DNA of 42,314 bases from Xanthomonas sp. NCPPB 1128 (lineage in GTDB: Bacteria; Pseudomonadota; Gammaproteobacteria; Xanthomonadales; Xanthomonadaceae), in assembly GCF_001043115.1 (NCBI RefSeq), contig NZ_LFME01000038.1, positions 1 to 42,314 on the forward strand. Direction: 5' to 3'. A program made the position numbers and the translations under genes. The notes beneath the pieces are model-generated. The model had not been told where the DNA came from, made no database searches, and saw nothing but the letters and a program-made list of their open reading frames with translations. The number at the start of each line of letters is the position of its first letter. Within the stretch, counting starts at the first letter, position 1. Shown in pieces: positions 22,067 through 25,372 of this stretch.

Positions 22067-25000
22067 ATGGAATTTGCCCTTTTCGCCATCGGCGTGGTCG
22101 TCGGCGCGGTGCTGTTGCATCTGGCGCGCCCTCGCGGGCGCAGCGCCTCCGCGCAACGGCCTGCACCGGCAACCGATACCAGCGACAACAATCACACCGC
22201 GCCCGAAGTAACGCAGGAGACCCCGGCGCAACATCTGCAGCGGCTGCGCCAGCAGGTGGAAGCGCAGGACGAGCAGATCCACAGCCCTGCCGATCTGGCG
22301 CAGATTCCGCAGTTCCAGCAAGGCGTGGCGCTGCTGGCGGGCACGGAGTTCTCCCATCAGGAACTGGTCGAGGCGCTGGGCAGCCCAGGCTACGTGCTGC
22401 CGTGCATGGCGGCGCAGGCCTTGGCGCAGCGCCGCCACCCGGATGCGGATGCGGTCCTGGACATGCTCCCGCACCTGGGCTCGTATCCGTTGAGCTTCCT
22501 GTTCGACTACCTGCAGCGCCTGCCGGATGCCGACCATCTGCACGCGCTGCTGCGCCACGCACGCGACTGGTGGTGGAACATCGTCCCGTTCCGGCAACGC
22601 CTGCGCGCCTATCTGCAGTGGGCCGCAAGCAAGGCCCCGGCGGACCGCCCGGTGGATTTCGACGAACTCGACGATGCAGCGCTGACCGCGCTCGGCGACA
22701 CCCTCGCACAGTTCAAGGAACCCGTGCTGGAACCGTTCCTGCAGCGCCTGCACGACGCACGCAAGCAGCGTCGCGAGCAGCGCGTGCTCGGCGGCTTCGG
22801 CCGCGTCGTCGCCGCAGTGCCGGCGCGCCTGCGCCTGCGCCACCCTGGGCTGGACGCGGCCTTGCAGCGCGCCTACGAGCACGTGGTGGCCACGCCCCCG
22901 CAGCCGGTGCTGCTTGTCGGCGAGCACGGCGTGGGCAAGAGCGTGCTGATCGACCTGCTCAGCGAACGCCTGCTCGCCGAAGGGTGGCGCGTGTTCGAGG
23001 CGTCCGCCGCGGAGATCCTGGCCGGGCAGAGCTACATCGGCGAACTGGAGGGACGCATCCGCGAGATGTTGGCGGTGCTGCACCGTGAGCGCGCCCTGTG
23101 GCGCGCGCCGGACTTCTACGACCTGCTGCACAAGGGTGCGCATTCGCGCGATCCGCGCGGCATCCTCGATCTGGCGCTGCCGGCCCTGGAGCGCGGCGAA
23201 CTGCGCCTGATCGGCGAGATCACCCCGCGGCAACTGGCGCAATTGCAGGTGGCGCGGCCGACCACGCGCTCGCGCTTCGAGGTGGTGACGCTGGAACCGG
23301 CCGCGCCCGCCGCGCTGGCACAGATCGGCGCACAGTGGGCGCAGGCCCAGGCACAGGCGCTGCAGACCGACGTGATCGACACCCGTGCCCTGGTCGAAGC
23401 CGAACGCCTGGCCGCGCAGTATTTCCCCGACCAGCACGAACCCGGCCGCCTGCTGCAACTGCTCGACGAGACCCTGCAGGCCGCGAAGGACGGTGACGGC
23501 GCGCGCTTGCCGCTGGACGACGATGCCCTGTTGCAGGCGCTGTCCAGGCGCAGCGGCCTGCCGCTGGAGGTGATCGACGATCGCCAACGGCTGGAACTGG
23601 ATGCGCTGCGCCGCTTCTTCCGCAAACGCGTGCTGGGCCAGGACGAGGCGGTGGAGACGCTGCTCGACCGCATCGCCATGCTCAAGGCCGGACTGATCGA
23701 CAGCCGCCGCCCGATCGGCGTGTTCCTGTTCGCCGGCCCGACCGGCACCGGCAAGACCGAACTGGCCAAGGCACTGGGCGAACTGCTGTTCGGCACCCCC
23801 GAGCGCCTGCTGCGCCTGGACATGAGCGAGTTCCAGGGCGAGGACGCGCTGTACCGGCTCACCGGCGACGACAGCGGCGGGCAGCGCACGCTGATCGCAC
23901 GCATCCGCGAACAGCCGTTCTCGGTGGTGCTGCTGGACGAGTTCGAGAAGGCCCACCCCAAGGTCTGGGACCTGTTCCTGCAGGTGTTCGACGACGCTCG
24001 CCTGAGCGACCGCAACGGCAACACCGCCGACTTCCGCCACAGCATCATCATTCTCACCAGCAACGTCGGCGCCACGCTGGCCCGCGGCGCCGGCCCCGGC
24101 TTCGCCACCGTCGCCGGCGGCTACTCGCGCAGCGCCGTGGAAAAGGCGGTGTACGAGACCTTCCGCCGCGAGTTCGTCAACCGGCTCGACCGCGTGGTGC
24201 TGTTCAACCCGCTGGATCGCGCACTGATGCGCGAGATCCTGCACAAGGAGCTGGATCGCACGCTGACCCGACGCGGCCTGCGCAATCGCGCCTGGGCGGT
24301 GGAATGGGAGCCGTCGGCGATCGAATTCCTGCTCGACCGCGGCTTCACCCCGGACCTGGGCGCGCGGCCGCTGCGCCGCGCGATCGACCAGCATCTGCTC
24401 GCGCCGCTGGCCCGCAGCATCGTCGAACAACGCGCCCCCGAAGGCGACCAGTTCCTGTTCGTGCGCGGCGCCGGCGACCGCCTCGACGTGCGCTTCATCG
24501 CGCCGGACGCGCCGCCGACACCAGAGCCCCTGCCCACCGCGGTCGACACCGCGGCGCCGACGGATCTGCGCGACCTGGTGTATGCACCCAGCGCAGACAG
24601 CGCTGTCCTGCCGCGCCTGGACGCAGTCTTGCGCAGCCTGCAGGACCTGCATGCCACGCCGGCCTGGCAGCAGGCGCGCGAGGCCGACTTCGCCACCATG
24701 GGCGAGCGCGATTTCTGGTCGCAATCGGGCCGCTTCCAGGTGCTGGACCGGATCGAGCGCCGCGACCGCACCGAAAGCGCGCTGGCGACCGCCGTGCGCC
24801 TGCGCGCGCGGCTGGACAGCGCGCAGCGCGACAGCGAGTTCGTGGGGCGCCTGACGCAGTTGCTGTGGCTGCTGCGCCTGGCCAGCACCGCGCTGCAGGA
24901 GCAGCGCCCGCAGGATGCGCTGCTGGACCTGCGCATCGGCCCCAGCGAATTGCACCGGCATCCGGCCGAAGCGCGGCAGTGGTGGCAACGCCTGCTGCAG

Positions 25001-25372
25001 ATGTATCTGGCCTGGGCCGAGCAGCGCAACATGCGGGTGGAAGTATTGGCGCAGGACCCGCAGCAGGGGCATGCCTGGCTGGCCATCGCCGGTTTCGGCG
25101 CGCTCGCATTGCTGGAAGCGGAAGCGGGCCTGCACGTGCAGGAACAGGAAGTCGACGAACCCACCCTGCGCCGGCTCGCGGTACAGGTGCGGGTCGCCCC
25201 GGACCTGCCCGGGCAGGCACGGCGCGCGCCCATCGACGAGGACGAATTGCGGGTGTGCCGGCGCTACCGGATCGCGCCTTCGCCGCTGGTGCGCGACAGC
25301 GTCCGCGGCTGGCGCAGTGGACGGCTGGAACGGGTGCTGGGGGGAGACTTCGACGTGATGCCTGTGGCCTGA
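22067..25372 (+). CDS. Membrane-anchored Clp-like double AAA+ protein with RF2-like C-terminus
   Basis: This 1101-residue protein is not a standard ClpA, ClpB or ClpC. Residues 3-20 form a hydrophobic anchor, and a helical region of unknown fold follows to about 265. AAA+ module 1 has Walker A GEHGVGKS (285-292) and pore residue Tyr323 in SYIGELEGR, but the Walker B position reads PDFYD (Asp349-Phe350), so the catalytic Glu is missing. No coiled-coil middle domain follows. Module 2 (about 510-800) has GQDEA, Walker A GPTGTGKT (557-564), Walker [13 protein letters not shown] (Asp624, Glu625) and FVNRLDR, but the GYVG pore loop is replaced by TGDDSGGQ (599-606). Residues 870-1101 resemble release factor 2: DFW at 882, MYLAWAEQR at 979, EAEAGLH at 1017, and [17 protein letters not shown] near the end. 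The SPF and GGQ motifs are absent. The gene stands alone. Function unknown. Confidence 0.85.

Follow-up and report, generated by a model that had tools for sequence, protein, structure and literature searches.

We find that a gene in the window, the whole 42,314-nt stretch of Xanthomonas sp. NCPPB 1128 analysed here, almost certainly encodes a Clp/Hsp100-type double AAA+ ATPase that carries an N-terminal hydrophobic anchor and, at its C terminus, the body of release factor 2 (RF2). Its sequence and predicted fold show that this body has lost catalytic domain 3 together with the motifs for reading stop codons. A sequence-only reading had proposed such a fusion of a Clp-type double AAA+ ATPase with an RF2-like domain, and the proposal is borne out by Pfam matches to AAA_2, ClpB_D2-small and PCRF together with RF2 matches in profile and fold comparisons. 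We place the protein among the Clp/Hsp100-type ATPases, as a divergent member with a new domain derived from RF2; it is not classed as a release factor because neither GGQ nor SPF is found, nor as a canonical Clp unfoldase because the Walker-B Glu of module 1 (D1) and the pore loop of module 2 (D2) are missing. Its features are as follows.

22067..25372, + strand: whole gene, 1101 aa, a Clp/Hsp100-type AAA+ ATPase with an RF2-derived tail (ORF and full-length orthologues)
22070..22126, + strand: N-terminal hydrophobic helix, residues 2-20, followed by an Arg-rich stretch (sequence and predicted helix 2-20)
22223..22798, + strand: helical N-terminal domain, residues 53-244 (predicted structure)
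22850..23491, + strand: AAA+ module 1 (D1), Walker A intact, Walker-B Glu lost (alignment and structure comparison)
23522..24505, + strand: AAA+ module 2 (D2), AAA_2 and ClpB_D2-small (Pfam, alignment and structure comparison)
24095..24103, + strand: Pro-Gly-Phe, residues 677-679, where ClpA and ClpC carry the ClpP-contact tripeptide (alignment)
24506..24598, + strand: variable linker, residues 814-844 (pLDDT below 50 at 815-829)
24599..24904, + strand: RF2 domain-1-like helical region, residues 845-946 (profile searches and predicted fold)
24905..25360, + strand: RF2 superdomain-2/4-like region, residues 947-1098 (Pfam, profile search and predicted fold)
24968..25135, + strand: Pfam PCRF match, residues 968-1023 (Pfam)
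25202..25252, + strand: short loop, residues 1046-1062, where RF2 has the inserted catalytic GGQ domain 3 (predicted structure; edge uncertain)
25253..25360, + strand: RF2 C-terminus-like segment, residues 1063-1098 (second collinear HMMER piece, dN/dS and shuffle test)

The gene is overlapped by an antisense frame of 1175 aa (22007-25534, − strand), which is probably a high-GC shadow ORF, since a G+C codon-position test keeps the plus frame and drops the antisense one and orthologues exist for the plus frame. Pfam placed AAA_2 at residues 548-709, ClpB_D2-small at 716-795 and PCRF at 968-1023 of the 1101-aa protein, the last with 28.4 bits against a cut-off of 24. No family was found at E ≤ 0.01 on the helical N-terminal domain, and the Clp N domain is absent from the 21 families that the protein matched at that threshold. 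The N-terminal hydrophobic helix, in which Gly9 and Gly13 are invariant in 22/22 family members, is by its sequence a probable inner-membrane anchor, with membrane insertion and topology likewise putative.

The homology of the tail to RF2 is seen in profile searches and in fold comparisons. First, the tail alone matched the NCBIfam prfB model at 2.6e-7, under that model's whole-protein cut-off, and RF2 chains of the PDB at 6.2e-5 (phmmer), a further collinear but weak piece falling at the RF2 C terminus. Second, a profile of 23 tail rows searched against the PDB retrieved 31 distinct sequences at E ≤ 10, all of them named RF1 or RF2, with RF2 best at 2.5e-11 and the top RF1 at 9.8e-5, and alignment of the tail to eight RF2 sequences with hhalign (Prob 97.7, E 2.2e-12) spans the DFW helix to beyond the SPF site. 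Third, PCRF was matched by all 22 full-length members at E ≤ 0.01. Fourth, 49 of the 50 Foldseek matches listed for the tail are, by title or by the PDB profile search, class-I release-factor chains, the remaining one, 8akn_W, being titled only as a terminating ribosome, and the predicted fold contains domain 1 and superdomain 2/4 of RF2, with domain 1 arranged as in free RF2. The sequence-only reading had placed residues 870-1101 in the order of RF2: the hhalign alignment, the PDB profile search and the PCRF match agree with that placement, profile comparison with the PCRF and release-factor families did find similarity, and the predicted structure shows domain 1 and superdomain 2/4 rather than a fold unlike a release factor.

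A chance or convergent resemblance to RF2 would be suggested by the C-terminal 46 positions, which on their own retrieved no RF2 from the whole PDB and matched only an unrelated phosphatase (E 0.42). For the tail as a whole we reject this explanation, whose probability is close to nil, because sequence profiles and fold agree and nearly all of the Foldseek matches listed are class-I release factors. The C terminus was nevertheless dropped as independent evidence of homology, since its score in hhalign against RF2 (Prob 1.8, P 0.027, at the correct place) is weak as well. In an ungapped comparison, the C-terminal 35-mer scored 43.1 against the matching segment of one RF2, a value reached by 0 of 400,000 shuffles (best 22.4); this is a test of place and not of discovery, because the target RF2 had been picked as the best hit. 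The segment follows the RF2 positions R-x-Y...P...V-K/R-D-x-R...G-D-x-D.

The motifs with which RF2 reads stop codons and releases peptides are gone from the family. GGQ, SPF and the W.SQ motif of the switch-loop Trp (Trp319) each occur in 0 of 23 tail rows, and the SPF site carries VDE, ADE, DDG, DER, DAN and similar triplets, mostly acidic or polar. The Gly-Gly at the tip of helix α5, which according to passages of PMC1586002 contacts stop-codon position one in release factors, is absent from the aligned columns in 23/23 rows; GG.E appears elsewhere in two rows, past the SPF site in L053 and, as GGAE, a few residues before the aligned tip in L043, where it may be a shifted α5-tip Gly-Gly. 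The catalytic domain of bacterial release factors is an insertion within the codon-recognition domain (PMC6514570, in the portion available), and a body able to fold can therefore remain once that domain is lost. Where exactly the edge of the deletion lies is uncertain, because a MAFFT merge of the tails with RF2 disagrees with HMMER and the predicted fold: it pairs CRRY...PLV with a GGQ-domain strand and leaves only RDSVRGW... aligned to the end of RF2. Given the absence of GGQ, SPF, the α5 Gly-Gly and the switch-loop Trp motif, the tail should, by its sequence, neither read stop codons nor cleave peptidyl-tRNA; its contacts with the decoding centre would be weakened by the mostly acidic or polar SPF site and by the loss of the other two decoding motifs. 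The earlier claims that the GGQ domain is gone, that SPF is replaced and that the tail can perform neither reaction thus hold across the family. Nor is the tail needed as the termination factor, since intact RF1 and RF2 frames lie elsewhere in the same genome and RF3 is present in 42/42 genomes (21 with the gene and 21 without, hence no discrimination).

What remains of the tail is under selection and not a relic, as substitution patterns indicate. In a 33-residue stretch at the release-factor C terminus, 19 positions are invariant in 23 rows, and charged family-specific stretches of 12 residues in domain 1 and 19 residues at the end are highly conserved. Across five same-genus pairs, dN/dS is 0-0.06 for residues 1061-1098, 0.07-0.12 for D2, 0.12-0.15 for D1, 0.28-0.40 for domain 1, a moderate constraint, and 0.20-0.46 for the linker (811-838), ratios that are rough because the segments are short. 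Residues 1061-1098 have the lowest value of eight segments in 5/5 of these pairs and in one pair to another genus, which is partly an effect of high dS, the dN of the C-terminal segment exceeding that of D2 in 3/5 same-genus pairs. Counting from residue 845 or from the aligned start, the 23 tails carry a net charge of 0 to −6, and RF2 frames one of −11 to −21; the C-terminal segment alone is at +1 to +6 in the family versus −2 to −3 in the matching part of eight RF2s.

The ATPase part contains two AAA+ modules with a Clp-type D2 small domain, as found by both Pfam and structure comparison. The full-length fold comparison covered residues ~238-813 and had ClpC and ClpA complexes among its best structural matches; the NCBIfam ClpB model scored 296 bits, far below its cut-off of 1232. 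In D2, Walker A and B (invariant in 22/22 members), TSN, the Arg finger (NR) and GAR are intact and the aromatic pore loop GYVG is missing, with no aromatic residue and no GYVG in that stretch in 22/22 members, which makes canonical threading doubtful. In D1, the position of the Walker-B Glu is Leu or Arg in all 22, given the alignment used. The sequence-only reading had noticed neither the D1 nor the D2 loss; its suggestion of a ribosome- or nascent-chain-linked quality-control machine at the inner membrane, and its claim that the tail keeps parts in contact with the ribosome, stay tentative beside the confirmed fusion. PGF at residues 677-679 is kept in 19/22 members although the D2 pore loop is gone, and stands opposite IGF when aligned with a ClpA-like protein (760 aa) that the genome also encodes. 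We take a tripeptide at this D2 site to be the ClpP contact of Clp ATPases. On that assumption the protein could be a membrane-tethered partner of ClpP, docking the protease through the PGF loop and using the tail to select ribosome-associated or release-factor-partner proteins for degradation. The frequency of PGF, its alignment with IGF and the resemblance to ClpC and ClpA complexes favour such a role; we consider it quite unlikely, as the remaining three members carry PAF, MGF or AGF, threading into ClpP would require the D2 pore loop that the family lacks, and the tripeptide consensus is itself our assumption.

The family is patchy in distribution and, within the samples taken, confined to one order. 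Full-length matches of at least 47% identity were found in 14/60 related genomes: the genome itself, 10 of the 19 others of the genus, one genome from a different genus of the family and two genomes from other families within the order. With the gene present in only 10 of those 19, its function is dispensable. The nearest named loci are in Xanthomonas sp. F10 and X. bonasiae (82 and 83% identity). A scan of named genomes for two conserved peptides, which could miss distant forms, gave 23 loci (24 of 181 stretches confirmed), titled Xanthomonas, Lysobacter, Luteimonas, Pseudoxanthomonas, Tahibacter, Rudaea, other Lysobacterales, Lysobacteraceae and Rhodanobacteraceae. Strong tail matches (at least 280 bits) occur in 23 of 398 genomes from the order. 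Long frames (862-1290 aa) hold 22 of these matches, and the remaining one lies in a frame of 276 aa where a contig begins; the tail is thus part of a long frame in every case where the contig extends far enough. One of the 22 long frames (L076, G065:C1:2653199-2653948) contains a single in-frame TGA and is perhaps a decaying copy. An 8-row tail profile had a match at E ≤ 0.001 in 371/398 genomes of the order; after the 23 strong ones, the matches listed fall in release-factor-sized frames of 344-428 aa (best 1.5e-11), and seven such frames inspected are RF2 with GGQ, SPF and GGTE. Thin samples of the class (2/369 genomes) and phylum (3/398) gave matches at E ≤ 1e-14 that all lie inside the order.

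Three associations were tried and rejected. For a mobile origin, 0/30 pattern stretches were confirmed in viral contigs and no plasmid matched at E ≤ 1e-80, phage records lying outside the search; for a defence origin, the five matches found by PADLOC were confined to the AAA part, DolB being the best at 4.8e-28; and for ArfA-linked rescue, ArfA was found in 0/42 genomes, with or without the gene.

Neighbouring genes were clustered by similarity and named by NCBIfam for the genes of the window and the MutS of L044. On the same strand upstream lies mutS in 14/23 loci and in the window, with a gap of 47-106 bases, by predicted starts, in seven loci (L038, L042-L046 and L053), and downstream lies the catalase-peroxidase gene katG in 13/23 loci and in the window, where a WYL regulator and a GST on the opposite strand intervene. 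The Tahibacter loci and L049 have a different set of neighbours: genes for a peptidase, an M19 dipeptidase, MerR and GGDEF (named on L049). Conserved in only part of the order, this synteny says little on function. Between the gene and katG, L036:9735-12149 and L056:9741-12158 encode an 805-aa protein, possibly a defence gene, whose L036 copy matches TPR and AAA_16/NB-ARC and, weakly, TIR and NACHT. A cluster of DUF937 proteins (Pfam on the L036 copy) lies near the gene in 8/23 loci (for example L036:8912-9559 and L044:8772-9407) and directly after it in L036, L044, L046 and L056. In the window, an Hsp15-like S4-domain gene, rplS, trmD, rpsP and ffh lie ~3-13 kb downstream. The Hsp15-like protein (28791-29543, − strand) scores 83.4 bits against an NCBIfam cut-off of 148, and its cluster occurs in 10/23 loci; Hsp15 binds obstructed 50S subunits (PMC8012679, in the portion available), and at this distance from the gene it is a weak hint.

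Our preferred reading, to which we assign a probability of roughly 0.4, is that the tail derived from RF2 serves to dock the ring on ribosomal complexes at the membrane, where the D2 motor remodels or dissociates them, D1 contributing little or no hydrolysis. In the docked tail, domain 1 would face the L11 stalk and superdomain 2/4 the A-site side, the orientation that RF2 adopts in rescue complexes that make no use of SPF; passages of PMC5378476 describe RF2 domain 1 contacting the L11 stalk and SPF staying unbound in ArfA-RF2 complexes. D1 would bind nucleotide, hydrolyse little or none and hold the ring together; D2, the working motor, would drive through its ATP cycles the remodelling or dissociation of the docked complex or of its nascent chain, and normal termination would fall to the genome's own intact RF1 and RF2. 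Docking is favoured by the RF2 homology and fold, the occurrence of the tail in long frames, the lowest dN/dS at the C terminus, the retained D2 Walker motifs and the lost D1 Walker-B Glu. Against it count the weakened decoding contacts, the tail charge of 0 to −6, the dS effect at the C terminus and the moderate constraint on domain 1, as well as the missing D2 pore loop, neighbours outside translation (mutS and katG), the different context in Tahibacter and dispensability. A fuller picture, in which an inner-membrane AAA+ ring grips stalled or terminating membrane-bound ribosomes by the emptied release factor and second-ring ATP hydrolysis pulls apart or recycles the complex with no peptidyl-tRNA hydrolysis, seems to us doubtful.

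Nearly as likely as docking is that the RF2 body was co-opted by the AAA+ ring as a regulatory domain or protein-protein adaptor, serving substrate or partner recognition or oligomer control with no ribosome binding, a possibility that we hold tentatively. Clp ATPases commonly use extra domains for adaptors. The adaptor role fits this habit, the mostly acidic or polar SPF site and the loss of catalytic and codon-reading motifs alongside highly conserved charged family-specific stretches; a mere scaffold, however, need not keep the C-terminal segment at RF2 positions or the free-RF2 arrangement of domain 1 seen in the model. Lower than either stands binding of the tail to RNA other than the ribosomal A site, as PrfB3 binds petB mRNA, with the ATPase remodelling RNA-protein complexes at the membrane. 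Although PrfB3 is a precedent (PMC5897788, in the portion available) and the C-terminal segment is more positive than that of RF2, the whole tail is neutral to acidic and no RNA-binding signature was found beyond the release-factor fold, so that this role is unlikely, as is the ClpP partnership considered above.

A release-factor body stripped of its catalytic domain and welded to an AAA+ motor amounts to evolution's own test of what RF2 can do without its catalytic part. Should the tail bind ribosomes, Clp-type remodelling and translation are linked in one chain; the bacterial routes described in PMC8012679 work through tags instead, with trans-translation or alanine tails directing products to Clp proteases. 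If it does not, the family is a clear case of a termination factor turned adaptor.

Compared with known systems, the tail resembles bacterial RF2 (prfB) in the order and fold of domain 1 and superdomain 2/4, the PCRF match and the C-terminal G-D-x-D segment, and differs from it in lacking catalytic domain 3 with GGQ, SPF, the α5 Gly-Gly and the switch-loop Trp motif and in being fused to an AAA+ ATPase. The ATPase shares with ClpA, ClpC and ClpB two AAA+ modules, ClpB_D2-small, D2 Walker A and B, the Arg finger and sensor 2; unlike them, it shows no Clp N domain by Pfam, lacks the D1 Walker-B Glu and the D2 GYVG, and has an N-terminal anchor and the RF2 tail. Its best AAA+ match outside the family in the search of 60 related genomes (302.6 bits, 39%) is to tandem Clp-like ATPases of another family of the order (L087, on G045:C8), from which the D1 Walker-B Glu and the D2 GYVG are likewise absent and which group with the RF2-tailed family against ClpA/ClpB-like rows at 100/100, a grouping that carries a long-branch warning. 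Unlike the RF2-tailed family, they stand three in tandem and show no RF2 tail in the sequences inspected, and they may be a separate system. The three (L087:8072-16451) lie beside a 1747-aa protein with no NCBIfam match at 1e-10 and have MGF, LGF or IGF in the position of the ClpP loop.

Release-factor relatives with altered parts provide further comparisons, among them a stand-alone GGQ rescue factor, presumably ArfB/YaeJ. That factor keeps the catalytic domain and lacks the codon-recognition superdomain (PMC8012679, in the portion available), and PrfH (RFH), with GGQ present and domain 1 absent, is the reverse of the RF2-derived tail, as far as the accessible text of PMC1586002 goes. Plastid PrfB3 is closer, an RF2 relative that has lost SPF and GGQ and taken another job, protecting the 3′ end of petB mRNA; it is a plant organelle protein and, in the portion of PMC5897788 available, is not described as fused to an ATPase. 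The union of an RF2 tail with a Clp ATPase was not found in the open-access literature (most subscription papers lie outside that search), and in the parts available, PMC6514570 makes no mention of Clp or PCRF and PMC7159879, on conflict systems, none of a release factor. Within that open-access scope, the earlier statement that no described system of this form is known stands: the parts are known and the fusion appears to be new.
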